Source of the DNA: Psychroflexus sediminis
Lineage (GTDB): Bacteria > Bacteroidota > Bacteroidia > Flavobacteriales > Flavobacteriaceae
Direction of reading: 5' to 3'
DNA length: 64,000 nucleotides
Assembly (NCBI RefSeq): GCF_900099815.1
Contig: NZ_FNCW01000001.1
Coordinates: 5,933-69,932 of the forward strand
The notes under the pieces are model-generated. The model was not told the origin of the DNA and did not search any database. It was given only the letters and a program-made list of their open reading frames with translations. Every line of letters begins with the position of its first letter. Position 1 is the stretch's first letter. The translations under genes were made by a program, and so were the position numbers. Shown one piece after another: positions 20,115 through 42,687 of the stretch.

Positions 20115-21605
20115 ATGATGAGTACCTTATATAGAAATTTATTTATGGCCTGTGTAGCACTTAGTTTGCTTTCCTGTGCTGATGATTTTGTGGAAGAACA
20201 ACCACCATATCAACTGACTTCTGAAACCTTTTTTGAGACTGCAGAAGATTTTCAAGCTGCTTTAATCGGCGCTTACGATCCCCTGCAGGCCACCTACGTC
20301 AATGTTATTCTAGGCGAAATAGCTTCCGATAATACACATGCCGGAGGAGAAAGCGCTACAGATGTGGTAGGCTGGCAGCAGGTAGACAAGATGGAGCATA
20401 CCCCCGTAAATGATAATATAGATGATGTGTGGGATTTTAATTTTGCAGGAGTTTACAGAGCTTCCTATATCATCGAAAATAAAGATAACATTGATTTCGA
20501 TGGTAAAAGCCAGATCATTGCAGAAGCCAGGTTTTTGAGAGCTTATTTTAACTTTGAACTGGTCAAATGGTTTGGAGCTATTCCCATCAAACCTGAAGGA
20601 AGGTTTGAACTGGGTGAAGAAACGTCTATTCCAAGATCTCCCGTAGAGGATGTGTACACTTATATTGAAAATGATTTGAATTTAGCCATAGCAGATATGT
20701 CTTTGGAGCCACCTCAAGTAGGACGAGCTTCAAAAGCATCTGCTCAAGCTTTGCTTGGTAAAGTTCACCTGTATCAGGATGAATTTATTCTTGCAGCTCC
20801 AGTGCTAAATGAAGTGATCAATTCTGGTCAATTTCACCTCTATGGTACAGAAGGCGACGAAGAATTTTTAAATCTTTTCGAGTTTAATGCTGAAAATAGT
20901 GCTGAATCTGTTTTTGAAGTACAATACACAGGCGCAGAAGGTGCCGGTTTTGGCTGCCTGCAATGCAGTGAAGGTAATGTGATGGTTGGATTTAGCGGAG
21001 TCAGAGGATACAGTGGCCCTGTATATGAATCTGGTTTTGGCTTTAATTTGCCAACGCAGGAGGCCTACGATGCTTTTGAATCTAATGATCTCAGAAGAGA
21101 ATTGAGCATCCTGGATATAGAAGCCTGGGTAGATGAAACAGGGGCCTCTTATACCATAGGAAATCAGGACCCTAGAACTGGTCACACCGGTTACTACAAC
21201 AAAAAATATTTACCTAGGAAAAATGATAATTTAGGGGATGCCAATTTAACGCAACCCAATAACTACAGAGCTATTCGCTATGCCGATGTATTACTGATGG
21301 CTGCAGAAGCTCTAAATAGAGGAAATATCGACGATGCACTTGCTTTGGATTACGTAAACCAGGTAAGAGTAAGAGCTGGTTTGTCAGAAGTCGATATTTC
21401 AGGAAGTCAGCTTACAGAGGAAATCTTTGAACAGAGACGCTTAGAACTTATTGGTGAAGGCCACCGTTTCTTCGATCTGGTTAGAACAGGTCGTGCGGCA
21501 GAGGCTATCCAGGGATTTACAGCTCCAAAAAATAATGTATTCCCAATTCCATTAGAAGAAATTCAGTTTTCTCAAGGCAATTGGTCACAAAACACAGGCT
21601 ATTAA
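20115..21605 (+). CDS. SusD/RagB-family surface glycan-binding lipoprotein
   Basis: A 496-residue lipoprotein with lipobox cysteine at residue 21 (LSLLSC), followed by the acidic ADD that resembles the lipoprotein export signal for surface display. The SusD fold is visible: N-terminal EQPPYQLTSETFFETAEDFQ, TPR-like helices including IIAEARFLRAYFNFELVKWFG, and the C-terminal RRLELIGEGHRFFDLVRTGRA and NVFPIPLEEI blocks. It would cap the SusC barrel and deliver the glycan. It lies 11 bases after susC and nearly abuts the PKD-domain gene (its stop codon overlaps an upstream extension of that frame). Confidence 0.95.
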   Translation: MMSTLYRNLFMACVALSLLSCADDFVEEQPPYQLTSETFFETAEDFQAALIGAYDPLQATYVNVILGEIASDNTHAGGESATDVVGWQQVDKMEHTPVNDNIDDVWDFNFAGVYRASYIIENKDNIDFDGKSQIIAEARFLRAYFNFELVKWFGAIPIKPEGRFELGEETSIPRSPVEDVYTYIENDLNLAIADMSLEPPQVGRASKASAQALLGKVHLYQDEFILAAPVLNEVINSGQFHLYGTEGDEEFLNLFEFNAENSAESVFEVQYTGAEGAGFGCLQCSEGNVMVGFSGVRGYSGPVYESGFGFNLPTQEAYDAFESNDLRRELSILDIEAWVDETGASYTIGNQDPRTGHTGYYNKKYLPRKNDNLGDANLTQPNNYRAIRYADVLLMAAEALNRGNIDDALALDYVNQVRVRAGLSEVDISGSQLTEEIFEQRRLELIGEGHRFFDLVRTGRAAEAIQGFTAPKNNVFPIPLEEIQFSQGNWSQNTGY

Positions 21606-24609: not shown

Positions 24610-26883
24610 ATGAAATGGAATGTATTGGGTTTTGTTGGCCTCCTTTTAATAGGATGCCAGCAAGACCCTTCTTTAAATAAAAATATAGAGGAATCAAAAA
24701 TCGACCAGAACGTGGAGGAACTTTTGGCTAAAATGACACTGGAAGAAAAAGTTGGTCAAATGAATCAGTACAGTGGATTCATGGATTTTACTGGGCCGCA
24801 GCCCGATCAGGGGAGAGCCGCCAAAAAATTGGAACATATCAAACAGGGTTTGGTCGGTTCTATGCTCAATGTGCATGGCGTTGAAAATGTGAGGGCTGTT
24901 CAAAAGATAGCTGTTGAAGAATCCCGACTGGGCATTCCGCTTATTTTTGGCTTTGATGTTATCCACGGCTATAAGTCTGTGAGTCCTATTCCCTTGGCTG
25001 AAGCGGCGAGCTGGGATCTTAAAGCGATTAAACGCTCTGCTGAAATCGCTGCAGAAGAAGCTTCAGCTGCAGGAATCAACTGGACCTTTGCACCCATGGT
25101 AGATATTTCCAGAGATGCCAGATGGGGACGTGTTATGGAAGGTGCCGGCGAAGATCCGTATCTTGGCAGTGAAATCGCCAAAGCAAGGATAAACGGTTTT
25201 CAGGGTGATGATTTATCCGCTACTCATACCGTTGCGGCTACAGCCAAACATTTTGCGGCCTATGGCTTTGCCGAGGCAGGCAGAGAATACAATACTGTAG
25301 ATATCGGCACGTCTACGCTTTATAATGTCGTTTTTCCTCCTTTTAGAGCTGCCGTGGAAGCTGATGTCAAAACCATTATGACTGCGTTCAATGTTCTCAA
25401 TGGCATTCCTGCCACCGGGAATAAATTTCTGCTAAGAGATATACTCAAAGGCAAATGGAATTTTGACGGATTTGTGGTGACCGACTGGGATTCTGCGGGA
25501 GAAATGATAGCTCATGGATTCGTAAAAGATGGGCGTGCTGCTGCTAAACAAGCCGTAATTGCGGGTTCCGACATGGATATGGAATCTTACCACTATATAG
25601 AAGAGCTTGTAAGCCTGGTTGAAGCCGGTGAAGTAGATGTGAAATTGATCGATGACTCTGTACGTCGAATTCTCAAGGTCAAATATGAACTTGGGCTTTT
25701 CGAAGACCCTTATAAATATTGCTCAGAAGCGCGCGAACAGGAGACCGTAAATCATCCAAAATTTAGAGAAGAACTAAGAGACATCGCCAAAAAGTCTATT
25801 GTCCTGCTCAAAAATGAAAAGGATTTACTACCCTTGAAATCCGCGGGTCAAAATATTGCTGTGATCGGTGCACTTGCCAACGATAAAACCTCTCCTCTAG
25901 GAAGCTGGAGGCTCGCAGCAGACACCGGAACAGCCGTTTCCGTACTGGAAGGCCTGGCGAAATTCGATCAAAATACCTATACCTATTCCAAAGGAGCTGA
26001 AGTAATTATAGGCAAAGCGTCTTTTACCAAAGAACTTCAAATCAATACCAGCGATACAAGTGGTTTTGCGGACGCCATTTCAGCAGCAAAATCTGCAGAT
26101 GTTGTGGTAATGGTCCTGGGAGAGCATGGATTACAAAGCGGGGAGGCGAGAAGCAGAACGCGAATAGATTTACCCGGCGTTCAACAGGAGCTATTAGAAG
26201 AAGTGTATAAGGTCAATCCGAACATTGTTTTGGTCTTACAAAACGGAAGGCCTCTTGCGCTTCCCTGGGCAGATGAACATATTCCGGCGATTGTGGAAGC
26301 CTGGCAGCTCGGTACCGAAAGCGGAAATGCCATTGCAGACGTTCTTTATGGAGCATACAACCCGAGTGGTAAATTACCGATGACCTTTCCGCGCCATGTC
26401 GGTCAGGTTCCTATCTATTACAATCATAAATCTACCGGGAGACCTTACCTTCCTTCGCCTGGAGAGGTATTTTGGTCACATTATTCCGATGAGAAAAACA
26501 CGCCTCTGTATCCATTTGGCTATGGCTTGAGCTATACCAGTTTCAGTTTTAAAGACTTACAGGTTAAAAATACTTATGCTGATAACAAGACCGTTTCTGT
26601 TTCAGTTACTTTAAGTAATACAGGAAAGCGCAAGGGTAAAGCTACGGCGCAGTTATACATTCATGATGAATATGCCAGTGTAACACGGCCTGTAAAGGAA
26701 CTTAAACGTTTTGAGCAGGTTGAGCTGCAACCCGGAGAAAGCCAGAACATCACATTTCAACTGACAGATGAAGACTTAGGCTTTTACACCAATAAAGGGG
26801 AATTTATAGTCGAAGAGGGAAGCTTTCGAGTATTTGTAGGGGAAGACTCTCAGGCTGAGCTAACAGAAACTTTTGAACTGTAG
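24610..26883 (+). CDS. bglX: GH3 beta-glucosidase (BglX-like)
   Basis: A 757-residue lipoprotein (lipobox Cys 16, LLIGCQQ) of glycoside hydrolase family 3, expected to release glucose from the non-reducing ends of beta-gluco-oligosaccharides in the periplasm. The catalytic nucleophile is D292 in FVVTDWDSAG. The acid/base candidate is E512 in QSGEARSRT. The (alpha/beta)8 domain covers about 40-370, the alpha/beta sandwich about 390-600, and the C-terminal fibronectin III-like domain about 670-750. KHFAAYG and GRVMEGAGEDPYL are family blocks. It is the last gene of the first transcript, ending before the terminator at 26960-26992. Confidence 0.94.
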   Translation: MKWNVLGFVGLLLIGCQQDPSLNKNIEESKIDQNVEELLAKMTLEEKVGQMNQYSGFMDFTGPQPDQGRAAKKLEHIKQGLVGSMLNVHGVENVRAVQKIAVEESRLGIPLIFGFDVIHGYKSVSPIPLAEAASWDLKAIKRSAEIAAEEASAAGINWTFAPMVDISRDARWGRVMEGAGEDPYLGSEIAKARINGFQGDDLSATHTVAATAKHFAAYGFAEAGREYNTVDIGTSTLYNVVFPPFRAAVEADVKTIMTAFNVLNGIPATGNKFLLRDILKGKWNFDGFVVTDWDSAGEMIAHGFVKDGRAAAKQAVIAGSDMDMESYHYIEELVSLVEAGEVDVKLIDDSVRRILKVKYELGLFEDPYKYCSEAREQETVNHPKFREELRDIAKKSIVLLKNEKDLLPLKSAGQNIAVIGALANDKTSPLGSWRLAADTGTAVSVLEGLAKFDQNTYTYSKGAEVIIGKASFTKELQINTSDTSGFADAISAAKSADVVVMVLGEHGLQSGEARSRTRIDLPGVQQELLEEVYKVNPNIVLVLQNGRPLALPWADEHIPAIVEAWQLGTESGNAIADVLYGAYNPSGKLPMTFPRHVGQVPIYYNHKSTGRPYLPSPGEVFWSHYSDEKNTPLYPFGYGLSYTSFSFKDLQVKNTYADNKTVSVSVTLSNTGKRKGKATAQLYIHDEYASVTRPVKELKRFEQVELQPGESQNITFQLTDEDLGFYTNKGEFIVEEGSFRVFVGEDSQAELTETFEL

Positions 26884-27407: not shown

Positions 27408-30400
27408 ATGAAAAATCTTTTATTCGCCTTTGTTTTCTTTTTCGTTTGCTCTTTTGGTTTTTCTCAAGGGCACGAGGTAGAAATCATATCTAATGAACAA
27501 GGTATGAAGTTGGAAGTTGATGGTAAAAACTTAATCATAAATGGTATGAACTGGAGTTATGTCCCTATTGGGAGAAACTTCAATTATAGTTTATGGAATC
27601 AATCTGACGAGATTATCAAAGCTGCGCTGGATGCCGAAATGGGTTTACTCAGCAATATGGGGGTAAATACTATACGAGTATACACAGGTATTCAGCCTAA
27701 GTGGATCACCTATATTTATGAAAACTATGGCATTTATACCATGCTCAACCATTCCTTCGGTCGTTATGGTTTAACTATAGATGGTGTGTGGACACCTGTG
27801 ACCAAATATGATGACGCCGCTACGCAGGACCTGCTCCTTTCGGAGGTTACTCAGCTGGCGCAGGAGTATAAAGGCACTCCAGGTCTTTTGCTTTTTCTTT
27901 TAGGCAATGAAAATAACTACGGATTGTTTTGGGCCGGTGCAGAAACTGAGGATTTTCCTGATGAAGAAGATCAAATTAAAGCCATAGGCGAAAATCGGGG
28001 CAGGCCCATGTATAATTTGATGAATCAGGCTGCGGTAGCCATGAAAGACATTGACGGCTCACTGCCGGTTGCCATTTGTAATGGAGATGTTTTATTCTTA
28101 GAAATCATTGCTGAAGAATGTCCCGATGTCGATATCTACGGGACCAACATGTACAGAGGGGCATCTTTTGGTGACGCGTTTCAAAAAGTAAAGGAAGTCT
28201 ATGGAAAACCCATCTTATTCACTGAATTTGGTGCCGATGCTTTCAATGCGATAGAAATGCAGGAAGACCAAAAGGCGCAGGCCTATTATATGGTAGAGAA
28301 CTGGAGGGAAATTTATCAAAATGCTGCGGGACTTGGTCTTGCGGAAAACTCGCTGGGTGGATTTACCTTTCAGTTTAGCGATGGATGGTGGAAGTACGGC
28401 CAGACAGAAAACCTTGAAGTGCATGACAGTAATGCCTCCTGGGCCAATGGAGGATACAGCAGGGATTTTGAAGAAGGTGAAAACAACATGAATGAAGAGT
28501 GGTTTGGAATTTGTGCTAAAGGACCTACCAGCGCAAGGGGTTTATACGATTTATATCCCAGAGCAGCTTATTATGCTTTAAAAGAAGCTCACCAGCTCAA
28601 TCCATATGCCGAGGATAATGATCTTTCTGATGTTGAAATGCATTTTAATGATATCAGTTTAATGGATGCGGTTTTGCAGGCAAGAGGAGATAAAGCAGCC
28701 TTAGGCGGCGGAGATTCTGAAAAAGTTGGAATTAGCCGATTAGCAGCGCATTTATCTACCTTTTATACCGGGGGTAATTTAATTACAACACCGGATAATC
28801 CAGATCCGAACAGCAACTCCTATCCAAACCAACTTGGGTTTGATCAAATGCAGTCCTATTTCATAGGCGTAGGTGGTAAACCTGCTGCCAATGTCAGTTT
28901 TAATGTGGACTTCAACTTCGTTGGGGATGTGGCTGAAAATCCTATCAATGAAATCTTTTATGAAAACCGAGCAAGACCTGTAACAGTAACTACGCCAGAT
29001 GGTGAAGTGATCATTCAGAATGACAATTTACAGGTTTACCAGGCAGAATTTGAATGGAGTAACGATTTATTCGACTTAAGAGGATTCTACAGGACAGGTC
29101 ACTACCACTGGGGTTACGAAGGCGATGTCTTTGGATTATATCCGGAAGCCAATTATGGACCCAATTTAGATATTTATGGCGGTGTTATTTCAGGTATCGA
29201 GATTGACGCTAAAGGAAGTTTAGAGGGTCTGAAAGCAGCTATTGGTCCTCAATTGTGGTGGGGTGCCAATCCAACCATGCTTTATAAATACAGTAAAACG
29301 ATTAAGAATTGGGATGTTACAGGAATATACCATAGAGATTTAGAAACAGAACTAGAATTTGATGAAAATGGACGCCGAATCTTGGATCAAAATCAGGTGC
29401 GTAGTGGTGTGATTCCTCCCTGGCCTCAGGAAAGAGCTACATTGGCACTAGAAAGAGATTTCGGTAAATTTGGGTTGACTCTTGGTGGAATTTGGGCTGG
29501 TAGTCCTCTCAACGGAAGCACCTATCAGGATATAGATGATGCTGGTAATGTGGTGGTAGATCAGGTAAACGCAGATGACAACTGGGGTGGTAAAGCAAAA
29601 ATCACCTATGCTGGAGGAAAATTTAACTGGTATGCTCAGGGAGCTGTCATGGGAATTGTAGCCAATGGAGGTGCAGATCCAACCTTAACCTTTACAGGCT
29701 GGAAACTGAAAGATAACGGAAGCGGTAACCAGTCTAATTTCCTGTCTGGTTTTACCTATAACATAGGGAAATGGCAGATTGCTCCTAATTTTTTATGGCA
29801 AAAACCTTTGGTAGATCCCATGCCAAACAATGGGGACGCGCCAGGAAGACTGAGAAATGTAATCGATGATCCATTCGCCGTAAGGTGGAATAGAGAAACT
29901 ACAGCCGGGGAGATCCTGTTTACTTTCGATCCCACTCCCGGTACGTATATGTACAACTGGGATAACAATAGATCCGAAGATGCGGAATTTGCTTTGAGTG
30001 CGGGCTTTGTTTACAGACACTTACCCACTACCATGGACGCCCACATTGGGTTTCTGGATACACGTGAATTTTTTGCCTTTTCCAATTCTGTTCCTGCAGA
30101 AGATCTCTGGGAAGCGCATGCTAAAGTAGTTTCCAGGTTAAGTCCGGATCTCGGTTTTGTAGGGACCTTTTATTATGGTAACGGTCAGGCTCAGGGAGAT
30201 TCTGAAAGACTGGTTACCGGCAGATTTGGCGCGAATTTAGATGTGAGGTATAAAAAATATTGGATTGTAGCGGATGTAAAAGTCGACGACTGGGGGCCTT
30301 ATGACTACCATAGGGATTTTAACTTAACCTTTCCCCTGCAAACCATGCTGGATATGTCCATGACGCTGGCAAAACCAGAGTGGTTTATTTTACCCACTAC

Positions 30401-30575
30401 CCAAATCGGTATACGAGGAATATGGAGATCATTAAATGAGTTTTCACCAAGATACTCTCCTAATGCAACTCCTATTGGTTCTTTTAATGCAGAACCCATT
30501 CTTAGCGCTGTTGGGTTTCCTAACGGCTCGGAGTGGGAGATCATGACATACATTAGATTTAACATAGGCAAATAA
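27408..30575 (+). CDS. Clan GH-A-like glycoside hydrolase fused to a predicted outer-membrane beta-barrel
   Basis: A 1055-residue exported protein (signal peptide to about residue 20, FGFSQ). Residues about 25-400 look like a clan GH-A TIM-barrel hydrolase: LLGNENNYGLFW gives an N-E pair (E168, acid/base candidate), and FTEFGADAF supplies E273 as nucleophile candidate, about 105 residues later. Residues about 440-1055 are a long run of alternating amphipathic strands (FIGVGGKPAANVSFNVDFNFV to MTYIRFNIGK) resembling an outer-membrane barrel or porin. The exact GH family cannot be fixed by eye (GH2-, GH5- or GH158-like are possible). It heads the second PUL transcript. Such a fusion would anchor a glucanase at the outer membrane. 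Confidence 0.7.
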   Translation: MKNLLFAFVFFFVCSFGFSQGHEVEIISNEQGMKLEVDGKNLIINGMNWSYVPIGRNFNYSLWNQSDEIIKAALDAEMGLLSNMGVNTIRVYTGIQPKWITYIYENYGIYTMLNHSFGRYGLTIDGVWTPVTKYDDAATQDLLLSEVTQLAQEYKGTPGLLLFLLGNENNYGLFWAGAETEDFPDEEDQIKAIGENRGRPMYNLMNQAAVAMKDIDGSLPVAICNGDVLFLEIIAEECPDVDIYGTNMYRGASFGDAFQKVKEVYGKPILFTEFGADAFNAIEMQEDQKAQAYYMVENWREIYQNAAGLGLAENSLGGFTFQFSDGWWKYGQTENLEVHDSNASWANGGYSRDFEEGENNMNEEWFGICAKGPTSARGLYDLYPRAAYYALKEAHQLNPYAEDNDLSDVEMHFNDISLMDAVLQARGDKAALGGGDSEKVGISRLAAHLSTFYTGGNLITTPDNPDPNSNSYPNQLGFDQMQSYFIGVGGKPAANVSFNVDFNFVGDVAENPINEIFYENRARPVTVTTPDGEVIIQNDNLQVYQAEFEWSNDLFDLRGFYRTGHYHWGYEGDVFGLYPEANYGPNLDIYGGVISGIEIDAKGSLEGLKAAIGPQLWWGANPTMLYKYSKTIKNWDVTGIYHRDLETELEFDENGRRILDQNQVRSGVIPPWPQERATLALERDFGKFGLTLGGIWAGSPLNGSTYQDIDDAGNVVVDQVNADDNWGGKAKITYAGGKFNWYAQGAVMGIVANGGADPTLTFTGWKLKDNGSGNQSNFLSGFTYNIGKWQIAPNFLWQKPLVDPMPNNGDAPGRLRNVIDDPFAVRWNRETTAGEILFTFDPTPGTYMYNWDNNRSEDAEFALSAGFVYRHLPTTMDAHIGFLDTREFFAFSNSVPAEDLWEAHAKVVSRLSPDLGFVGTFYYGNGQAQGDSERLVTGRFGANLDVRYKKYWIVADVKVDDWGPYDYHRDFNLTFPLQTMLDMSMTLAKPEWFILPTTQIGIRGIWRSLNEFSPRYSPNATPIGSFNAEPILSAVGFPNGSEWEIMTYIRFNIGK

Positions 30576-32077: not shown

Positions 32078-32905
32078 ATGAAGAATTATAAAATACTCTG
32101 CTCAATGCTCATCATGAGTATGCTTACACTCAGTTTTCAAAGCTGTGACCTGGACGAAACACAAACCGTTACTACACTCAATGACCTGGTCATGGAAGAA
32201 CAATTTGAGGGGTCCGAACTGGATCCCTCTCTGTGGTCTTTTGTAGTTGGAGATGGTTCTGAGGAAGGTATTCCGGGATGGGGAAATAACGAACTTCAGC
32301 ACTATACCGACCGGGAGGAAAATCTAAAAGTAGAAAATGGGATGCTGGTTATAACTGCCCGCCAAGAGTCTTTTGAAGGCTCTGCATATACCTCTGCACG
32401 TATAGTGACTAAAGCCAAATTTGAAAAGCAGTATGGCCGGATAGAAGCGCGTATGAAAATGCCATGGGGTGCGGGTCTGTGGCCGGCTTTCTGGATGCTG
32501 GGCACAGATATAGATCAGGTAGGCTGGCCTCAAACCGGCGAGATTGACATTATGGAATATGATGGGAGTGAACCCACTATAGTTCACGGAAGCGTTCATG
32601 GACCAGGTTATTCCGGAGGCAATGCTGTGACTAAAAGTTATGAATTTATGGATGAAAGACTGGATACAGGTTTTCATACCTATGGTATTGAATGGGGAAA
32701 AAATTACATCAATTACTATGTCGATGATGTGCTTTACAATCAAATCACACCAGATGATGAAGACTTAACTGGTGAATGGGTATTCAATAAGCCTTTTTAT
32801 ATTATAATCAATATGGCCGTGGGCGGCTCTTTTGTGGGGCCTCCAAATGCTAATACGGTCTTCCCACAAACTCTGGAAGTGGATTATGTAAAGGTTTACG
32901 AGTAG
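32078..32905 (+). CDS. GH16 endo-beta-1,3-glucanase (laminarinase-like) lipoprotein
   Basis: A 275-residue lipoprotein (Cys 23, SFQSCDLDE; the acidic stretch after Cys favours surface display). It is a compact GH16 jelly roll with the signature GEIDIMEYDG: E155 nucleophile, D157 and E160 acid/base, in the beta-bulge spacing typical of laminarinases. Conserved aromatic patches PWGAGLWPAFWMLG and GWGNNELQHYTDR match beta-1,3-glucanases. It is expected to cut internal beta-1,3 bonds. A hairpin follows 24 bases after the stop (32930-32961), separating it from the phosphorylase gene. Confidence 0.94.
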   Translation: MKNYKILCSMLIMSMLTLSFQSCDLDETQTVTTLNDLVMEEQFEGSELDPSLWSFVVGDGSEEGIPGWGNNELQHYTDREENLKVENGMLVITARQESFEGSAYTSARIVTKAKFEKQYGRIEARMKMPWGAGLWPAFWMLGTDIDQVGWPQTGEIDIMEYDGSEPTIVHGSVHGPGYSGGNAVTKSYEFMDERLDTGFHTYGIEWGKNYINYYVDDVLYNQITPDDEDLTGEWVFNKPFYIIINMAVGGSFVGPPNANTVFPQTLEVDYVKVYE

Positions 32906-32929
32906 TCCCTAACTCAACACAAAGATGAC

Positions 32930-32961
32930 AAAAGCGGTATTGCTAAAACCTTACCGCTTTT
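32930..32961 (+). terminator. Hairpin between GH16 and the phosphorylase genes
   Basis: AAAAGCGGTA (32930-32939) and TACCGCTTTT (32952-32961) form a perfect 10-bp stem around a 12-base loop. The right arm ends in four Ts but no long T tract, so it may be a weak terminator, an attenuator or an mRNA-stability hairpin. It would lie inside a longer reading of the next ORF, which is one reason to prefer the start at 33000. Confidence 0.6.
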
Positions 32962-32999
32962 GCAAATATAAAACTGAACGAAAAACAAATATTAAATTG

Positions 33000-35900
33000 A
33001 TGAACAAAAACCAGATTATTGACAATCAAACGTCAAAAACGAGTGACTTGGAACAGGTAAGATTAAACGGTGAAAAATTTCTGAAAATCACCAATAATGA
33101 CGCTTTGAGGCCGTTTTTCATGAGTATTGTGAGTGATTCTAATCACTGGATGTTTATTTCTAGTAACGGAGGTTTAACCGCGGGTAGACGCAATGCGGAA
33201 TACGCCCTTTTTCCTTACTACACAGACGATAAAATTACCGAATCTGCCCACTACACCGGGAGCAAAACCATAGTTAAAATCCATTCTTCAGATCAGATCA
33301 ACTACTGGGAGCCCTTTTCAAACCGCTTTGTTGAGCAGTATGAAATCACCAGGAACATATATAAGAACATTTATGGCGATAAATTGATTTTTGAAGAAAT
33401 CAATCACAGCTTAAAACTCAAGTTCACCTACCGCTGGTCCACCAGTGATAACTATGGGTTTGTAAAAGAAGCTCAGTTGTCTAACCTGGATTCCAAACCG
33501 GTTAAGCTTGAAGTTTTAGACGGACTCCAAAATGTATTACCTGCCGGTGTGGTTAGCGATTTACAGATACAAAGCAGTAATCTTGTAGATGCCTACAAAC
33601 GCAGCGAACTCGATGAAAAAACGGGTCTGGGCATTTTTGCCCTTAGCGCTGTTCCTGTCGATAAAGCCGAACCTAGCGAAGCTTTGAAAGCCAATGTGGT
33701 TTGGTCTCTGGGTGTCGAAAATCCAACCCATTTACTTTCTTCTTTGCAGCTCGAAAACTTTAGATCGGGAAAAGCCCTCACTGAAGAAACCGATGTTAAA
33801 GCTGAAAAAGGAGCCTACTTTATTCACGACACACTTGAGCTAAAGGCAGAAGCAGGCAAGTCCTGGCACATCATCGCCGATGTGAATTACAACCACGCTT
33901 CAGTGGTTAAGCTTCAGCAAGACTTACAGAAAGATAACCTGTTACAGCTCATTGAACAAGATATTCAATTGGGTACTGAAAAATTAATTCAGCTGAATGG
34001 CGCAGCAGATGGTTTACAGCGTTCTAATGACAACCTAAGAGATATACGTCACTATTCCAATACCATGTTCAACATCATGCGTGGCGGTATTTTTGACAAT
34101 AATTACCAGATCGAACGCTGGGATTTTAAAGCATACCTGCATAAGGCTAACCAGCCTTTAGCCGAAAAATTTTCAGATGAAATCAAGTCCTTGCCAGAGG
34201 TTTTTTCTCTAAGCGATCTGAAAGCCCTGGCTGAATCTAAAAATGACAAAGATTTTTCACGTCTTGCTCTTGAATATCTTCCCTTGAAATTTAGCCGAAG
34301 ACACGGTGACCCGAGCAGACCCTGGAATCAATTTTCGATTAATACAAAAGATGATGAGGGGCATAAAATTCTGGATTATGAAGGGAACTGGCGGGATATT
34401 TTTCAAAACTGGGAAAGTCTTGCCCATTCGTATCCTGAGTTTATCGAAAGCATGATCTATAAATTTTTAAACGCAAGTACCTTTGATGGGTATAATCCTT
34501 ACCGCGTCACCAAGGACGGTTTTGACTGGGAAACCATCGAGCCGGATGATCCCTGGTCGTATATCGGGTATTGGGGAGATCATCAAATTATTTACCTGCT
34601 CAAGTTTCTAGAATTTTACGAAGATTACAAGCCAAATAATTTAGCTGGCCTGTTTAATAAATCAGAGTTTGTTTACGCCAATGTTCCTTACAAAATCAAG
34701 TCTTATCAGGACATTTTGAACGATCCTAAGGACACGATAGAATTCGATCATAAAGCCGATACCAGAATCCGTAAAAAACGAAATGAAATCGGAGCAGACG
34801 GCGCATTGCGACGAGATAAAAAAGGCAACATTATTCATGTCAATTTTATTGAAAAAATACTGGCAACTGCTTTAGCAAAACTCTCTAATTTTATTCCTGA
34901 AGCCGGGATCTGGATGAATACGCAGCGTCCTGAATGGAACGATGCCAACAATGCTTTGGTGGGTAATGGGGTTTCCATGGTGACCTTATCCTACCTCAGA
35001 CGTTTTCTGGCTTTCTTCGAATCCGTTCTTGAAGAGGTTGAGGCTTCAGAAGGCTATGAGATTTCAGAAGAACTGGCTGACATGTTTGCCAAAATGGAAG
35101 TTACTTTTAAGACGTACCAGGATTTAACTGAAGGCAGGTTTACTGACCGTCAGCGTAAAGACATCTTGGATGAACTGGGAGAGGCGGCGAGTATTTTCAG
35201 AACTCAGGTTTACACGGCCGGGTTTTCAGGAACCAAAACCGAAGTTTCTGCCGGACAGCTTAGCGATTTCATAAGCTCAAGTCTGGTTTATCTGGAACAT
35301 GCGATTGAAGCTAACAAACGAACAGATAACCTGTACCACGCGTATAATTTAATGACGCTAAACGAAGATGGGGTTTCCATCGATTATCTGTCTGAAATGC
35401 TGGAAGGTCAGGTGGCCGTCTTAAGTTCCGGCTATTTAAATTCTGACCAGGCTTTGAGTTTGCTGGATGCCTTAAAACAAAGCGCATTATTCAGACCAGA
35501 CCAGTACAGTTATTTACTGTATCCTAACAAAGAACTGAAGGGCTTTTTAGAACGAAATACGATTCAGGAATCCTCGGTAAATTCTTCTGAATTACTTCAG
35601 AAAATGATCGAAGATGGAAACAGAAAAATCATTGAAAAAGACGCTAAAGGGAATTATCATTTCAATGCCAATTTCAATAATGGAAAGAAATTAAAACAGG
35701 CTTTACTAAATCTTGATGATGAATACTATGCTGCTTTAGCTGAAAGCGAGCTGGACAGGATTCTAAAGATCTACGAAGAGGTTTTCAACCATAAATCCTT
35801 TACAGGCCGATCGGGAACCTTTTACGGCTATGAAGGTTTGGGTTCTATCTATTGGCATATGGTTTCTAAACTGCAATTATCGGTTTTAGAAACCTGTGTT

Positions 35901-36452
35901 CAGGCGATAAACACTGAGGCCTCAGCCGAGGTTACCGGTCGTCTTCTGGAACATTACTACGAAATTAACGAAGGTATTGGTGTTCATAAGTCACCCAAAC
36001 TTTACGGGGCATTCCCAACCGATCCCTATTCGCATACACCGCAGGGGAAAGGAGCACAACAGCCGGGTATGACCGGTCAGGTCAAAGAAGATATCTTGAG
36101 TCGGTTTGGCGAACTGGGCGTCAGCATCAAAAAAGGTAAGCTTCAGTTTAAGCCGCACCTGCTCAGAAAAACAGAATTTCTGGATGAAAAACATATTTTT
36201 AGATATGTTGATGTGGCCAATAAAAAACATCAACTTCAACTCGAAAAGAATTCGCTAGGATTTACATTTTGTCAGGTACCCATCCTTTATACCAGGTCAA
36301 CTCAAAATAAAGTTGAGGTTGAGTTTAGTAAAGGCGGTTCAGAGCAAATCGACGGACTTCAATTGCCAAAAGAAATTAGTCAGGAGGTATTTGACCGATC
36401 TGGGAAAATCAAAATGATCCACGTTCAGGTTGAAGATTCATTTTTAAAATAA
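33000..36452 (+). CDS. GH149-type beta-1,3-oligoglucan phosphorylase
   Basis: A large 1150-residue cytoplasmic protein (no signal peptide) that resembles the GH149 / cellobiose-phosphorylase-like proteins of beta-glucan clusters, such as those described from Euglena and bacteria. It would phosphorolyse beta-1,3-oligoglucans to glucose-1-phosphate, saving ATP. Seen directly: an N-terminal NDALRPFFMSIVSDSNHWMFISSNGGL block and a central WRDIFQNWESLAHSYPEF, DPWSYIGYWGDHQIIYLLKFLEFY stretch typical of inverting phosphorylase (alpha/alpha)6 domains. The frame is open from 32925, but that stretch crosses a hairpin; ATG at 33000 opens with MNKNQIIDNQTSK and is preferred. GH17 follows 6 bases later. 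Confidence 0.8.
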   Translation: MNKNQIIDNQTSKTSDLEQVRLNGEKFLKITNNDALRPFFMSIVSDSNHWMFISSNGGLTAGRRNAEYALFPYYTDDKITESAHYTGSKTIVKIHSSDQINYWEPFSNRFVEQYEITRNIYKNIYGDKLIFEEINHSLKLKFTYRWSTSDNYGFVKEAQLSNLDSKPVKLEVLDGLQNVLPAGVVSDLQIQSSNLVDAYKRSELDEKTGLGIFALSAVPVDKAEPSEALKANVVWSLGVENPTHLLSSLQLENFRSGKALTEETDVKAEKGAYFIHDTLELKAEAGKSWHIIADVNYNHASVVKLQQDLQKDNLLQLIEQDIQLGTEKLIQLNGAADGLQRSNDNLRDIRHYSNTMFNIMRGGIFDNNYQIERWDFKAYLHKANQPLAEKFSDEIKSLPEVFSLSDLKALAESKNDKDFSRLALEYLPLKFSRRHGDPSRPWNQFSINTKDDEGHKILDYEGNWRDIFQNWESLAHSYPEFIESMIYKFLNASTFDGYNPYRVTKDGFDWETIEPDDPWSYIGYWGDHQIIYLLKFLEFYEDYKPNNLAGLFNKSEFVYANVPYKIKSYQDILNDPKDTIEFDHKADTRIRKKRNEIGADGALRRDKKGNIIHVNFIEKILATALAKLSNFIPEAGIWMNTQRPEWNDANNALVGNGVSMVTLSYLRRFLAFFESVLEEVEASEGYEISEELADMFAKMEVTFKTYQDLTEGRFTDRQRKDILDELGEAASIFRTQVYTAGFSGTKTEVSAGQLSDFISSSLVYLEHAIEANKRTDNLYHAYNLMTLNEDGVSIDYLSEMLEGQVAVLSSGYLNSDQALSLLDALKQSALFRPDQYSYLLYPNKELKGFLERNTIQESSVNSSELLQKMIEDGNRKIIEKDAKGNYHFNANFNNGKKLKQALLNLDDEYYAALAESELDRILKIYEEVFNHKSFTGRSGTFYGYEGLGSIYWHMVSKLQLSVLETCVQAINTEASAEVTGRLLEHYYEINEGIGVHKSPKLYGAFPTDPYSHTPQGKGAQQPGMTGQVKEDILSRFGELGVSIKKGKLQFKPHLLRKTEFLDEKHIFRYVDVANKKHQLQLEKNSLGFTFCQVPILYTRSTQNKVEVEFSKGGSEQIDGLQLPKEISQEVFDRSGKIKMIHVQVEDSFLK

Positions 36453-36458
36453 ACGCTC

Positions 36459-37742
36459 ATGAAGCCTATAATAAAGACAATTTTAATAGGATGCCTGGTT
36501 TTACTGGCTTCGTGCACTCAAACCAAAAAAGAGCAAAAATCAATGCAAAATAACCGCAATTTGACCGCTAAAGAGATTTTAAATAAGCCAGATTATTTGG
36601 CCATTTCGTATGGCGGCTACCGTAAGAAAACTCGCGATTCTCAACCGACGCTAAAAGAGCTTAAAGAAGATTTGAAAATCCTTCATGCTATGGATATTCG
36701 TGTTTTACGCACCTATAATGTTCGTCTGCCACATGCGGCAAACATTTTAAAAGCGATAAAGGAGTTGAAAGCAGAAGATGAAAATTTTGAAATGTATGTT
36801 ATGCTCGGGGCCTGGATAGACTGCAAAAATGCCTGGACAGAGCTGCCTCTCAACCATAACGAAGGGAGTGTGAACAACGCTGCCGAAATTGACCGGGCTG
36901 TGGAGCTGGCCAATATGTATCCGGACATTGTCAAGATCATTGCTGTAGGAAACGAGGCTATGGTGAAATGGGCATCGGCTTATTTTGTTCAGCCCCATAT
37001 TATTTTAAAATGGGTTAAGCATCTGCAGAACATCAAAAAAGAAGGAGGCTTAGATAAAAATGTATGGATTACCAGCTCAGATAATTTTGCGTCCTGGGGA
37101 GGAGGAGAAAGTGAATATCACACCCCGGAACTCGAGGAGCTTATCAAAAGTGTAGATTATCTTTCGGTTCATACTTACCCTATGCATGACACGCATTACA
37201 ATCCTGTATTTTGGGGGATTTTACCCAAAGAAACCAAATTGACCAACCTCGAAAAGCTAGACAAAGTCATGGATCGGGCATTGAGTTATGCGGTGACGCA
37301 ATACGATAGTGTAGCCAGTTATGTGAAAAGTTTAGGACTTAAAAAACAAATACACATCGGTGAAACAGGCTGGGCAAGTTATTCAGACGGATTTTATAGT
37401 ATGACCGGTTCCAGAGCCACCGATGAATACAAACAAGCCTTATACTATCATAAAATGCGCGAATGGTCCACAGAAAACAAGGTCAAATGCTTCTACTTTG
37501 AAGCTTTTGATGAGCCCTGGAAAGATGCGCATAACCCTAAAGGTTCCGAAAATTATTTTGGCTTATTTACCGTTGATGGGAAAGCCAAATATGCGCTTTG
37601 GGAGGCTGTAGACAGGGGTGCTTTTGAGGGTCTGAAACGCGGTAAACATGAAATTACAAAGACCTATGACGGTAAATTGGGTAATCTGCTTTTGGATGTG
37701 CAAATGCCTTTAGTTAAAAATGAAATTATGGTCAACCATTAA
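36459..37742 (+). CDS. GH17 beta-1,3-glucanase lipoprotein
   Basis: A 427-residue lipoprotein (lipobox Cys 19, LLASCTQTKKE; no acidic cluster after the Cys, so periplasmic sorting is more likely than surface). It is a GH17 TIM barrel, with acid/base E166 in AVGNEAMVK and nucleophile E302 in HIGETGWASYS. Other blocks are VDYLSVHTYPMHDTHYN and CFYFEAFDEPWKD. It begins 6 bases after the phosphorylase stop and belongs to the same tightly packed operon. Its sequence is distant from the two downstream GH17 domains, which are a closely related pair. Likely substrate: laminari-oligosaccharides. Confidence 0.9.
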   Translation: MKPIIKTILIGCLVLLASCTQTKKEQKSMQNNRNLTAKEILNKPDYLAISYGGYRKKTRDSQPTLKELKEDLKILHAMDIRVLRTYNVRLPHAANILKAIKELKAEDENFEMYVMLGAWIDCKNAWTELPLNHNEGSVNNAAEIDRAVELANMYPDIVKIIAVGNEAMVKWASAYFVQPHIILKWVKHLQNIKKEGGLDKNVWITSSDNFASWGGGESEYHTPELEELIKSVDYLSVHTYPMHDTHYNPVFWGILPKETKLTNLEKLDKVMDRALSYAVTQYDSVASYVKSLGLKKQIHIGETGWASYSDGFYSMTGSRATDEYKQALYYHKMREWSTENKVKCFYFEAFDEPWKDAHNPKGSENYFGLFTVDGKAKYALWEAVDRGAFEGLKRGKHEITKTYDGKLGNLLLDVQMPLVKNEIMVNH

Positions 37743-37765: not shown

Positions 37766-39262
37766 ATGAAACCTTTGAAAATTTTATCTCTCACTTTAAT
37801 ATCACTTATGTTAGCTAGTTCTTGTGTAGAAAAAGAAAAATCATTGACAGTTGAGGTTTTTGAAACTTCCAGAAGTGGAAATAAACTCTCTAAAATAGAC
37901 TCTTTCAGCCCTGGGACTGAGTCAGCCTCTAAAATCAGCTTAAATCCTAAAAAAACCTTTCAAACCTTTACGGGTTTTGGGGGCTCTTTTACAGAATCTT
38001 CGGCCTATTTGCTGAATCAGTTAGGGAAAGAAAATCGTCAAAAAATCATCGATGCTTATTTTGCTGATAGTGGTGCGCGCTATTCTTTAACCAGGACGCA
38101 TATGAATTCAAGTGATTTTTCACTTGACCAATACTCTTATGCACCAGTTGAAGGCGATACCTTATTAAAATTTTTCAGCATTGAAGAAGATAAGGACGAT
38201 ATCATTCCTATGATTAAAGATGCTATGGCAGCTTCCTCAGAAGGATTTAATATTATTTCATCGCCATGGACGGCTCCGCCCTGGATGAAAACCAACAACG
38301 CCTGGGTGGGTGGTGAATTAAAGCGAGAGCATTACGATACCTGGGCCTTATTCTTTTCCAAATATGCCGATGCTTACAAAGCTGAAGGTATTGATATTTG
38401 GGGGTTTACTGTGGAAAACGAACCACACGGCAACGGGAATAACTGGGAAAGTATGCATTACAACCCTGAAGAAATGACCGAATTTGTGCGAGACTACCTC
38501 GGTCCGCAACTTGAAAATGACGGCAAGGGAGATTTAAAAATCCTGGGTTATGATCAAAACAGGAAGGGTATTAAGGAATGGGTAGATGTGATGTATAAAA
38601 ATGAAGCGAATGCTAAATATTATGACGGAATGGCTATTCACTGGTATGAAAGTACGTTTAAAGTTTTTCCTGAAGCCCTGCAATATGCTCATGAAAAAGC
38701 ACCTGATAAATATCTGATTCAGACCGAGGCTTGTGTAGATTCAGAAGTTCCAAAATGGCAGAATGACGACTGGTACTGGCAAAAAGAGGCTACCGACTGG
38801 GGCTGGGACTGGGCCCCGGAAGACCAGAAACACTTACACCCCAAATACCGACCGGTTTACCGCTATGCCAGAGATATTATCGGGTGTATGAACAACTGGG
38901 TAGACGGCTGGGTAGACTGGAATATGGTGCTCGACCGTCAGGGTGGCCCCAACTGGTTTAAAAACTGGTGCGTAGCTCCGGTTATCGTAGATCCAGACCA
39001 GGATGAAGTTTATTTTACGCCTTTGTATTACACCATGGCGCACTTCAGTAAATACATTAGACCAGGGGCCAAACGTATCGCTTTTGAATCGACAGACCAG
39101 GACCTGCAGGTGAGTGCTGCAACCAACCCTGATGGGAGCCATGTGGTGATTGTGTTCAATCCTTCCAAAGAAGAAAAAGTATTTGATCTTCATTTGGATG
39201 ATGCTGTAAAAACACTTTCAATCAGTCCACAGGCAATCCAAACCATCACACTCATTAACTAA
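37766..39262 (+). CDS. GH30 glucanase lipoprotein (probable beta-1,6-glucan activity)
   Basis: A 498-residue lipoprotein (Cys 20, ASSCVEK) of family GH30, whose members include beta-1,6-glucanases and glucosylceramidase-type enzymes. Catalytic pair: E219 in TVENEPHGNG (acid/base) and E321 in LIQTEACVD (nucleophile). The N-terminal GFGGSFTESSAYLLNQLG and the C-terminal beta-sandwich with VSAATNPDGSHVVIVFNPS match the family. In a laminarin-type locus it would remove beta-1,6-linked side groups. It is 24 bases after GH17 and 12 bases before the symporter-GH17 gene. Confidence 0.9.
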   Translation: MKPLKILSLTLISLMLASSCVEKEKSLTVEVFETSRSGNKLSKIDSFSPGTESASKISLNPKKTFQTFTGFGGSFTESSAYLLNQLGKENRQKIIDAYFADSGARYSLTRTHMNSSDFSLDQYSYAPVEGDTLLKFFSIEEDKDDIIPMIKDAMAASSEGFNIISSPWTAPPWMKTNNAWVGGELKREHYDTWALFFSKYADAYKAEGIDIWGFTVENEPHGNGNNWESMHYNPEEMTEFVRDYLGPQLENDGKGDLKILGYDQNRKGIKEWVDVMYKNEANAKYYDGMAIHWYESTFKVFPEALQYAHEKAPDKYLIQTEACVDSEVPKWQNDDWYWQKEATDWGWDWAPEDQKHLHPKYRPVYRYARDIIGCMNNWVDGWVDWNMVLDRQGGPNWFKNWCVAPVIVDPDQDEVYFTPLYYTMAHFSKYIRPGAKRIAFESTDQDLQVSAATNPDGSHVVIVFNPSKEEKVFDLHLDDAVKTLSISPQAIQTITLIN

Positions 39263-39273
39263 CTCTCATTTGT

Positions 39274-41766
39274 ATGTCTGAAATAAAAACACCACTCAAA
39301 GATCGGGTTCCGGTTGGTCAGAAGGCTGCCTTTGGGGCAGGCCATTTTGTATTAAATCTCCTGCCGGGAGTTTTGGGGGTTTACCTGCAGGTATTTATTC
39401 TTACGGCTTTTGGAATGGATCCTATATGGGCTGGACTTTTAGGTGGTTTGCCCAGAATTTTCGATGCCCTTACAGACCCCATCATGGGCTTTATTTCTGA
39501 CAATACAAAATCAAGATACGGAAGACGCCGGCCTTATATTTTTTCAGGAGCAATTATTAGTGGGATATTGTTCATCCTGATGTGGCAACTGGATGAAAAT
39601 GCATCTATGACCTATAATTTCTGGTACGTGATGATTCTGCAAATTTTATTCCTTGTTGGAAACACCATGTTTGCCACGCCTCTGGTCGGACTTGGCTATG
39701 AAATGACCCCGGATTATAATGAAAGAACACGCTTGATGAGTCTTGCCAATTCCATGGGGCAAATTGCCTGGATCATTGTGCCCTGGCTATACGTGATTAT
39801 ACCGGATCCTAACACCTTCGATAATCCAGCTCAGGGGGTGAGAACCATGGCTTATATCGTTGGTGGGGTATGTATGGTTTTTGGAATATTACCCGCTTTG
39901 TTCTGCAAGGGAATGGATGCCGGAGAGATGGAAGATCGGGAAAGGATCAGTCTCAAAACACTGGCAAAGAATATGAAAAAGCTTTATGAAGGAATTGTTC
40001 AGGTTTCCAAAAACAAGCCGTTTATGAAGCTTTGCGGAGCCACTTTTTTAGTGTTTAATGGTTTTCAGCTGGTGGCGGCTTTTTCAGTGTTTATCATTGT
40101 GTTTTATATGTACCAGGGGAGCTGGGAAATGGCAGGAACTTGGCCGGCCTGGTTCAATTCACTCAATGCGGTTATTACGGCCCTCATTGTGATTCCGATC
40201 GTTTCTAAAATGGCAACCCGGTTTGGAAAACGAAAGGCTTTCTTAATTGCAACTTTCTTATCTATAATAGGTTATATCCTGAAGTGGTGGGGATTTGATG
40301 TTGAATTGAATGAACAATTCAATCAAACGGCACTCGGTGAAAGTCTTACAGAGGCTTTAGGCTCTCTTTTTAATTTTCTGAATCCCTATCTGGAAAGTAT
40401 AGGAGCAACCTGGTTTACTATCAACGTGGAAGACGGTGTGCCCTGGTTGATTTTCTTGCCCATACCGTTTTTTGCTTTTGGAATGGGCGGTCTTTTTACC
40501 CTGATGATGAGTATGACCGCAGATGTTTGTGACCTGGATGAACTGGAAAACGGCTTGCCCCGAAAAGAAGGGACGTTTGGTGCTATTTACTGGTGGATGG
40601 TGAAAGTGGGTCAGGCTTTGGCCATCATATTGAGCGGAGTTATTTTGAAAATAGTAGGCTTTGACCAAAACATAACCGATCAAAGTCTGGAGACCATGAC
40701 GAATCTTAGAATTGCAGATATCCTTGTTCCGGCATCAACCGCTGCTTTAGCCTTTCTGGTCATGTGGCGTTATGATCTGGGCGAGAAAAGGGTGAGAGAA
40801 ATAGCAGCTGAGCTCAAGAAAAGAAAGGCACTGCCAAAAAGAACGAGTTCCTCCTATCATGCTCAAAACCTGCTTTCGCTGACTTCGTTGCAAATCGCTC
40901 CCGATTTTAAATATGATATAGATTTCTCAGACAAATCCATAGATGAGGTACTCCATCTTTTTTCAACTACCCTCAACAAGGGCATGCATGGCTTATGCTT
41001 CAGCCCTTACGAAGAAGGACAGGATATAGAGGATGTTCTCTCTGAAGAACAAATCATAAGACGGGTTGATATCGTTAAACCTTATACAAACTGGTTAAGG
41101 TCTTTTTCATCTACCGGAGGAAATGAATACATCCCTCAGGTCGCCAGGAGATCTGGTATTAAAACCATGGCCGGGGCCTGGATAAGCGAAGATAAAGCGC
41201 AAAACCAGATAGAAATTGAGGAACTGATTAAACTTGGTAAAGCAGGCCATGTGGACATAGCCGTAGTTGGTAACGAAGTACTGCTCCGCGAAGAACTTAC
41301 CGAAGAAGAACTTTTAGTGTATATTGAAACCGTCAAAAAAGCACTGCCAGGTATCCCGGTGGGTTATGTTGATGCGTATTCCCTGTTTAATGAAAGTTCG
41401 TCGCTTATAGAGGCCTGTGATGTTATTTTAATCAACTGCTATCCGTTCTGGGAAGGGGCAGAAATCGAAATAGCAACGTCTTATTTAAGGGAAATGTACT
41501 CACTCGTTAAAGCGAAAGCTAAAGACAAACCGGTGATGATTGCTGAAACAGGCTGGCCAACTCAGGGAGAAAATACAGGGAAAGCCATTCCTACCAGGCT
41601 CAACGCGATGAAATACTTCATCAATGTGAATAACTGGGCGCAAAAAGAAAATATAGACTTATTTTATTTCTCATCTTTTGACGAATCCTGGAAAGCACGC
41701 CATGAAGGGGATGTTGGTCAACGCTGGGGAATATGGGATAAAAACGAAAAAATTAAATTTAAGTAA
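39274..41766 (+). CDS. GPH-type sugar symporter fused to a GH17 domain
   Basis: An 830-residue protein with two parts. Residues about 10-510 are a 12-helix transporter of the glycoside-pentoside-hexuronide:cation symporter type; FDALTDPIMGFISDNTKSRYG at about 62-82 is the family signature. Residues about 545-830 are a GH17 TIM barrel with acid/base E668 in VVGNEV and nucleophile E758 in AETGWPTQG. With 12 helices both ends should face the cytoplasm, so imported beta-glucosides would meet the hydrolase at once. The linker (about 510-545; KRKALPKRTSSSYHAQ) is basic and polar. The GH17 part closely resembles the next gene, pointing to a duplication. No frameshift is present. Confidence 0.85.
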   Translation: MSEIKTPLKDRVPVGQKAAFGAGHFVLNLLPGVLGVYLQVFILTAFGMDPIWAGLLGGLPRIFDALTDPIMGFISDNTKSRYGRRRPYIFSGAIISGILFILMWQLDENASMTYNFWYVMILQILFLVGNTMFATPLVGLGYEMTPDYNERTRLMSLANSMGQIAWIIVPWLYVIIPDPNTFDNPAQGVRTMAYIVGGVCMVFGILPALFCKGMDAGEMEDRERISLKTLAKNMKKLYEGIVQVSKNKPFMKLCGATFLVFNGFQLVAAFSVFIIVFYMYQGSWEMAGTWPAWFNSLNAVITALIVIPIVSKMATRFGKRKAFLIATFLSIIGYILKWWGFDVELNEQFNQTALGESLTEALGSLFNFLNPYLESIGATWFTINVEDGVPWLIFLPIPFFAFGMGGLFTLMMSMTADVCDLDELENGLPRKEGTFGAIYWWMVKVGQALAIILSGVILKIVGFDQNITDQSLETMTNLRIADILVPASTAALAFLVMWRYDLGEKRVREIAAELKKRKALPKRTSSSYHAQNLLSLTSLQIAPDFKYDIDFSDKSIDEVLHLFSTTLNKGMHGLCFSPYEEGQDIEDVLSEEQIIRRVDIVKPYTNWLRSFSSTGGNEYIPQVARRSGIKTMAGAWISEDKAQNQIEIEELIKLGKAGHVDIAVVGNEVLLREELTEEELLVYIETVKKALPGIPVGYVDAYSLFNESSSLIEACDVILINCYPFWEGAEIEIATSYLREMYSLVKAKAKDKPVMIAETGWPTQGENTGKAIPTRLNAMKYFINVNNWAQKENIDLFYFSSFDESWKARHEGDVGQRWGIWDKNEKIKFK

Positions 41767-41769
41767 ATC

Positions 41770-42687
41770 ATGTCGTACAGAAAAGAACAACAGGTAACAG
41801 AGCAGCAAAAACAGTTTTTAGCTTCTATACAGGACTCAGGTATCATGCCGGAGGTTTCGAAAAAGGAGCTTTATGATCTATTCAAATCCATAATGAAAGA
41901 TGGATTTCACGGCATATGTTTTAGTATGTATGAAGACGGACAGGAGCCGGGGGACAGCATCACTGAAGAACAGGTGCGACGACGTATAAACATTTTGAAA
42001 CCACACGTCCAATGGGTGCGTTCGTTTTCGTGTATTGAAGGCAATGAATTTGTGCCTAAAGTAGCCAAAGAAGAAGGCATGAAAACCCTGGTAGGCGCAT
42101 GGATTAGCGACGATAAAGAAAAGAATAGAGAAGAACTGGACGCTCTTATAAAATTGGCAAATGAAGGTAAAGTAGATATCGCTGCAGTTGGCAACGAAGT
42201 TTTATATCGAAATGATATACCGCTTGAAGAATTGAAAGCACATATAGAAGAGGTAAAACGCTCCATACCTTCCCACATTCCGGTAGGTTACGTGGATGCA
42301 TATTATGAATTTGCCGTGCATCCGGACCTGACAGATTTATGTGATATCATCTTATCCAACTGCTATCCGTTCTGGGAAAAATGCCATCACGACTATGCAC
42401 TCACCCATATGCAGCAAATGTATGGGCAGGCTCTACAGGCGGGTAGAGGTAAAAAAGTAATCATTACCGAAACAGGCTGGCCAAGCCAGGGTGAAAGTTT
42501 AGGGGCTGCAGAGCCCTCTGCTGAAAATGCCCTGAAGTACTTCATTAACACGCAGTTATGGTGTAAAAAGGCTGGTATTGAAAGTTTTTATTTTTCATCC
42601 TTTGATGAATCCTGGAAAGTTGGCGCTGAAGGCGTCGTTGGAGCCTACTGGGGAATCTGGGATAAACTCGAGAAATTGAAATACTGA
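41770..42687 (+). CDS. Cytosolic GH17 beta-1,3-glucanase
   Basis: A 305-residue stand-alone GH17 enzyme without signal peptide or lipobox, so cytoplasmic. Acid/base E143 is in AVGNEVLYR and nucleophile E234 in ITETGWPSQG. Blocks such as GICFSMYEDGQEPGD, VGYVDAYYEF and ILSNCYPFWEK have direct counterparts in the GH17 half of the gene immediately upstream (3-base gap), so the two are tandem paralogues. Together with the phosphorylase it would process oligosaccharides inside the cell. It is the last gene of the transcript that starts at 33000; the conserved element before the T9SS protein begins 12 bases after its stop. Confidence 0.9.
   Translation: MSYRKEQQVTEQQKQFLASIQDSGIMPEVSKKELYDLFKSIMKDGFHGICFSMYEDGQEPGDSITEEQVRRRINILKPHVQWVRSFSCIEGNEFVPKVAKEEGMKTLVGAWISDDKEKNREELDALIKLANEGKVDIAAVGNEVLYRNDIPLEELKAHIEEVKRSIPSHIPVGYVDAYYEFAVHPDLTDLCDIILSNCYPFWEKCHHDYALTHMQQMYGQALQAGRGKKVIITETGWPSQGESLGAAEPSAENALKYFINTQLWCKKAGIESFYFSSFDESWKVGAEGVVGAYWGIWDKLEKLKY

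Follow-up and report, generated by a model that had tools for sequence, protein, structure and literature searches.

The locus described here raises three linked questions: why a membrane transporter and a GH17 glycoside hydrolase are encoded as a single protein, on which side of the inner membrane the enzyme would work, and where its GH17 domain came from. The window analysed, a stretch of 64,000 nucleotides from Psychroflexus sediminis, carries an uninterrupted frame of 830 codons (39274-41766) in which the transporter precedes the GH17 domain in one gene; this gene, its parts and its assigned neighbours in the window lie on the forward strand. Pfam matched MFS_2 to residues 20-503 (E 2.8e-61, 207.8 bits against a cut-off of 27) and GH17 (PF00332) to residues 752-829 (E 2.5e-11, 44.2 bits against a gathering score of 28.2), and a PDB sequence match to 4wtp_A spanned residues 598-815 (E 1.9e-30). 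An AlphaFold model calculated from a 36-row alignment returned a mean pLDDT of 84.3 and a pTM of 0.63. The transporter half (residues 1-497, 39274-40764) shows 12 membrane-length helices and a MelB-like fold according to Pfam, the model, Foldseek and the alignment to 4m64_A. It is followed by a linker (residues 498-555, 40765-40938), which on the model and hydropathy contains a helix at 504-519, a disordered stretch at 520-527 with pLDDT below 50 and no membrane helix. The GH17 barrel (residues 556-830, 40939-41763) starts at about residue 556 in the model and was delimited by Pfam, the PDB match, the model and Foldseek. Pfam, the PDB match and the model thus agreed with the initial annotation in placing a 12-helix transporter and a complete GH17 domain in one frame.

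A missed stop codon or frameshift between the two halves was also considered. The frame is open, and the same fusion occurs in both other Psychroflexus genomes searched (G236, locus L005; G039, locus L008) and in six more named loci of the Psychroflexus/Mesohalobacter group (L069, L070, L071, L074, L075 and L077). Since it recurs in independent genomes, the fusion is not a sequencing slip, and a frame artefact was ruled out. Similar linkers are present in other fusions.

The architecture is not new: a fusion of this kind was already described in 2018, and it is widespread. FbGH17B (FORMB_24740, AOR29491.1) from Formosa sp. Hel1_33_131 is presented in passages of Unfried et al. 2018 (PMC6246565), where a 12-helix MFS and a GH17 are encoded in the same order by one gene that has GH30 and GH17A as neighbours in its laminarin locus. 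These passages call the fusion "common among marine Flavobacteriia" and report that the protein cleaves debranched laminarin and laminari-oligosaccharides, releasing glucose. According to passages of PMC10108472, 11 of 15 active bacteroidetal genomes and 7 of 18 gammaproteobacterial ones expressed variant 1 laminarin loci, most of which had a GH17-MFS fusion, and such loci ranked with the most strongly expressed polysaccharide loci of a North Sea bloom. These fusions, matched here by description, have the same architecture and occur in Bacteroidota, SAR92, Luminiphilus and SAR86. The window protein therefore belongs to a known, already published kind of MFS-GH17 fusion. Neither the side of the membrane on which the fused GH17 lies nor an exchange of the transporter was found in the main-text passages of the published descriptions.

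An order-level survey of 395 genomes returned 40 matches at E 1e-20, and a family-level survey of 397 genomes returned 137 matching ones. Eighty-one of these 137 were read as loci and contained 28 true fusions, a number that is a lower bound for the 137 and not a rate, as the choice favoured fused-looking rows. The 80 loci scoring best against a profile built from six fused GH17 sequences, taken whether fused or not, comprised 74 full-length fusions, two shorter fused frames (L079 and L092), one frame ending at a contig edge (L096) and three loci in which the match was a free gene (L112, L134 and L143). The final set contained 98 distinct fused proteins, 77 split transporters and 171 free GH17s, with fusions spread over Flavobacteriaceae, Cyclobacteriaceae and Saprospiria-type genomes. 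In the split relatives the transporter and GH17 genes directly adjoin, with small gaps. Larger fusions of 1020-1274 amino acids, suggested by open-frame lengths, were discarded as they turned out to be separate genes when the open reading frames of the loci were read.

The best Foldseek match of the transporter half was MelB (7l16, TMt 0.82, 18% identity), a separate protein with which it shares the fold and the Asp pair of the cation site. Residues D64 and D68 align with D55 and D59 of MelB (4m64_A) and are invariant in 36 of 36 fusions (alignment A2), and D55C is named as a cation-site mutant in PDB titles for MelB. By analogy, the transporter half probably performs cation-coupled sugar transport. 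The NCBIfam GPH model TIGR00792 scored 186.3 bits, below its cut-off of 231.35, and the original label "GPH-type" was therefore replaced by the safer "MelB-like, Pfam MFS_2".

The 12 helices expected for the transporter were recovered in the AlphaFold model, the first at residues 14-45 and the last at 472-497, with the linker helix in addition. Hydropathy analysis gave 11 peaks on the Kyte-Doolittle scale and 12 on the GES scale; both missed model helix 2, and GES counted instead part of the loop that joins helices 9 and 10. When the model helices were applied to 36 fusions, Lys plus Arg residues averaged 32.4 in the would-be cytoplasmic segments versus 2.4 in the periplasmic ones, and 22.8 versus 2.4 when the tail 493-550 was left out. 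No hydrophobic stretch was detected by hydropathy beyond residue 498. On the basis of this charge bias and of the even number of helices, the location of the GH17 domain on the cytoplasmic side, as originally proposed, is well supported by prediction.

The GH17 half was matched by Foldseek to Rhizomucor miehei RmBgt17A (4wtr, TMt 0.87; 4wtp, TMt 0.86; 268 aligned columns), a separate protein of 28% identity with the same fold and catalytic Glu positions. E668 (codon 41275-41277) aligns with the glutamate in the 4wtp motif GSEVLYR and is the acid/base by homology, and E758 (codon 41545-41547), which is Ala in the active-site mutant 4wtr, is the nucleophile by homology. Both glutamates stand at the positions originally assigned to them and occur in every one of the 98 fused and 171 free GH17s (269/269), as do the equivalents of Trp191 and Glu192. 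A Pfam match above threshold, two catalytic Glu residues and a barrel fold place the fused domain in family GH17.

A single further residue, at column 671, largely distinguishes the fused sequences from their free neighbours. In transglycosylases this position is Tyr (MlGH17B Y136, RmBgt17A Y102); passages of PMC11005184 report that Tyr136 of MlGH17B is required for transglycosylation and that the residue is Met in FbGH17B. The window fusion has Leu (L671, codon 41284-41286), and the fusion of the only Formosa-named relative in the set, a MAG (L072), whose transporter is 42% identical to that in the window, has Met. Column counts were Leu 58, Met 18, His 11, Tyr 6, Gln 4 and Phe 1 in the 98 fused GH17s, and Tyr 155 and Leu 16 in the 171 free ones, so that Tyr is missing from 92/98 fused domains and kept in 155/171 free proteins. 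Columns that separate the two groups at 85% or more in both were only 637 and 738, both conservative; the Tyr column misses this threshold because the residues of the fused group are mixed. The six fused GH17s that keep Tyr are L057, L165 and L167-L170, and L057, L169 and L170 group with the Tyr-less L166 as one of the two branches that diverge first within the fused GH17s (IQ-TREE, 75 rows). On a tree of 251 rows the pattern needed four changes, two per group, and it therefore represents few events observed in many sequences. These data lead us to predict a hydrolase for the fused GH17 and a transglycosylase for the free neighbour, and the Tyr position could serve as a simple predictor of the two activities for marine GH17 genes.

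The free gene begins at 41770, 3 bases past the stop codon of the fusion, exactly as had been reported, while its description as closely related was generous, the identity to the fused GH17 being 51-52% over the matched stretch. The two groups were separated on the 251-row FastTree tree by a single branch, with one change and support 99, and the corresponding branch on the 75-row IQ-TREE tree had support 99/95. The nine Psychroflexus/Mesohalobacter fused GH17s form a clade (100/98) inside the other fused ones, and L072 falls inside the same fused GH17 clade. No member of the fused clade occurred as a free gene among the 171 free GH17s. Forcing the fused and free GH17s of the window together was rejected by the AU test (p 0.000538), as was forcing together all 18 Psychroflexus/Mesohalobacter GH17s (p 0.000692). 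The fused GH17 was therefore not copied from its free neighbour, and the duplication suggested by the initial annotation was ruled out. A motif in the linker of 79 of the 98 fusions lies mostly 45-48 residues ahead of a G.CFS motif, whereas in free genes the distance from Met1 is most often 37 and, in a second group, 44-47; this gives a weak hint that a GH17 gene might once have started at the motif. In Kordia (L104 and L107/L154) two free GH17 genes follow the fusion, and the pair in L104 belongs to different free clades.

The transporter halves showed a different history. Identity to the window transporter was 38.6-44.2% in 88 of the 98 fusions and above 50% in the other 10. On a tree of 63 chosen rows, in which long branches meet according to a program warning, short and long transporter types divided at 100/100. 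Short-type fused transporters were intermixed with split short-type ones, and the nine Psychroflexus/Mesohalobacter fused transporters were of the long type, lying among split transporters at three places: the window with P. longus and two Mesohalobacter-group loci; P. montanilacus, P. salis, P. gondwanensis and P. salarius; and P. curvus, next to the split transporter L183 (100/100). The tenth fusion above 50% identity, L057 (G455), stood next to the split transporter L011 (100/100). The transporter lineage used by the Psychroflexus/Mesohalobacter fusions otherwise occurs unfused in this sample. Forcing together all 26 fused transporters was rejected (p 2.6e-77), and so was forcing together the nine of Psychroflexus/Mesohalobacter (p 2.5e-10); joining the eight that remain without P. 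curvus was not rejected (p 0.112), so that of the three possible origins within this group just two are firm.

Pairwise identities agreed with this picture. Between the window and P. longus they were 92.0% for the transporter, 60.2% for the fused GH17, 78.5% for GH30 and 85.6% for the free GH17, with a fall near residue 480; between the window and P. curvus the corresponding values were 69.7%, 77.9%, 91.3% and 86.2%. SecA was 95% (P. longus) and 96% (P. curvus) identical to that of the window genome. Transporter and GH17 histories therefore differ, with a breakpoint near the transporter end, and since the window groups with P. longus by its transporter but with P. curvus by its GH17, a faster change of the GH17 alone is an insufficient explanation. 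By these comparisons, the transporter half is the odd one out in P. curvus, where it is read as having been exchanged at least one more time. The Psychroflexus-group linkers are like those found in short-type fusions, so that the linker appears to have moved together with the GH17. These results suggest that the enzyme half was joined to different importers in evolution. The new element, as judged from the trees, is a distinct fused GH17 clade that stayed attached while the transporter lineage changed, and this replacement of the transporter with the enzyme still attached would provide a natural experiment on the payoff of tethering an enzyme to a transporter.

The neighbouring genes were then assigned by Pfam unless otherwise stated, and signal peptides and lipobox-like starts were judged by eye from the sequence. 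The locus includes a SusC-like TonB receptor (17060-20104) with SusD (20115-21605), a GH3 (24610-26883), a GH16 (32078-32905), a GH149 beta-1,3-glucan phosphorylase with no visible signal peptide (32925-36452; NCBIfam NF058639, 1803 bits against a cut-off of 1150), a GH17A-like protein (36459-37742) and a GH30 (37766-39262), both with lipobox-like starts, and the free GH17 (41770-42687), placed in clade B by the tree and bearing no visible signal peptide. A PKD protein (Pfam) and a LacI-like regulator, whose NCBIfam matches are all under cut-off, also occur in the locus. GH30, GH17A and GH149 alongside the fusion mark the locus as laminarin-type. Among 80 related named loci, the 62 with full 5 kb flanks contained GH149 in 53 cases, GH17A in 61 and GH30 in 45. 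Passages of PMC5827456 describe gammaproteobacterial GH149 clusters with a cytoplasmic GH17 and a pfam13347 MFS. A secreted-looking protein of 1055 amino acids (27408-30575) carries at its N-terminus a sub-threshold glycosyl hydrolase match (PF11790, E 0.0081).

The observations cover the open frame with its domains and number of helices, the bias in charge, the residues of the active site, the gene neighbourhood and the clades; from these we infer the transport substrate, the direction and coupling of transport, and a division of labour in the cytoplasm. With moderate confidence, we favour an inner-membrane importer of short beta-1,3-gluco-oligosaccharides, probably cation-coupled, with an exo-type GH17 hydrolase tethered at its cytoplasmic exit, so that the substrate would be cut upon entry at the inner face. 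In the periplasm, GH30 and GH17A would debranch and cut laminarin, activities transferred from the Formosa homologues. The transporter half would then bring debranched laminari-oligosaccharides inward, and the fused GH17, devoid of the transglycosylation Tyr, would cleave them at the inner face. GH149 would convert oligosaccharides to glucose-1-phosphate by phosphorolysis, and the free GH17, which retains the Tyr, may act as a cytoplasmic transglycosylase. The GH17 can be placed at the transporter exit only tentatively, as the model has a pTM of 0.63 and its linker residues 520-527 are below a pLDDT of 50. The uptake of beta-1,3-gluco-oligosaccharides, already put forward in the initial annotation, is plausible given a GH149 with no visible signal peptide in the same locus, and the presence of GH149 in 53/62 related loci also counts for oligosaccharide import. 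A tethered hydrolase is favoured by the fused clade remaining fused on differing transporter lineages and by the activity reported in the FbGH17B passages on laminari-oligosaccharides. The periplasmic-type GH3 counts against this explanation, as it could finish digestion ahead of uptake. Should the fused GH17 indeed be cytoplasmic and linked to import, these bacteria would degrade laminarin in part after uptake, and whether import or cutting comes first is directly testable.

A possible, though less probable, alternative is that the two halves are tethered and uncoupled: the transporter would import glucose, laminaribiose or another small sugar, the GH17 would act independently on cytoplasmic glucan or oligosaccharides, and the fusion would just fix their expression ratio or place. 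GH3 and other glycoside hydrolases could indeed free glucose before uptake, and the 77 split transporters indicate that a fusion is not required, since in many relatives transporter and GH17 are separate genes. Furthermore, MlGH17B of Muricauda lutaonensis, a relative located beside MFS and GH30 genes in a laminarin locus, is described in passages of PMC11005184 and PMC13188888 as a free transglycosylase, predicted cytoplasmic, whose locus holds an unfused MFS gene, and passages of PMC13188888 propose that it acts on the cell's own beta-1,3-glucan. MlGH17B is a free protein with Tyr136, and its counterpart is the free gene at 41770 rather than the fused domain. Independent action fits poorly with the failure of the fused clade to appear among the 171 free GH17s, and with a GH149 in the locus that suggests a cytoplasmic supply of oligosaccharides.

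It is unlikely that the fusion represents a neutral accident in which adjoining genes lost a stop codon with no advantage. The short gaps between the genes of split relatives would make such an event easy to envisage, but the fusion recurs on several transporter lineages and across all three groups of genomes named above, and its GH17 was never found free in our set. A periplasmic GH17 cutting oligosaccharides just ahead of product uptake is very improbable: the passages of Unfried et al. give no side for the fused enzyme and so leave room for it, but the even helix number, the clear N-in/C-in charge bias, the lack of a hydrophobic stretch past residue 498 and free relatives lacking a signal peptide (judged by eye; passages of PMC11005184) all oppose it.

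Returning to the import-first tethered hydrolase, a broader and more tentative proposal can be made. The fused GH17 with its linker may be a plug-in catalytic module that works only at a transporter exit. Its ancestor would have been a soluble transglycosylase, and the Tyr would have disappeared once the first branches of the fused clade had diverged. At least four transporter lineages (the short type, the main Psychroflexus/Mesohalobacter long type, the P. curvus type and the G455 type) would have acquired the module, which never became free again, and the physical coupling of import to the first cut would be a selected trait. The locus might then parallel maltodextrin use in part, for beta-1,3-linked substrates, through its hydrolase, transglycosylase and phosphorylase. 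MlGH17B is reported, in the passages available, to make beta-1,6 linkages, and such products need not be cut by GH149, which argues against a simple parallel.

Finally, the survey returned some loci of other composition. A frame of 511 amino acids (L079, 4317-5852) joins a partial transporter to a GH17 within a chromosome record and may be a truncated or frameshifted copy. Loci L059, L061-L065 and L058 contain a long-type transporter, a gene of 204-211 amino acids with no clear Pfam match and a free GH17, and several of them also carry a second, short-type transporter. A protein of 685 amino acids in G306 (L067, 2430-4487) shows MFS_2 at residues 51-435 followed by about 250 residues with no Pfam match above cut-off, and might represent a further transporter fusion.
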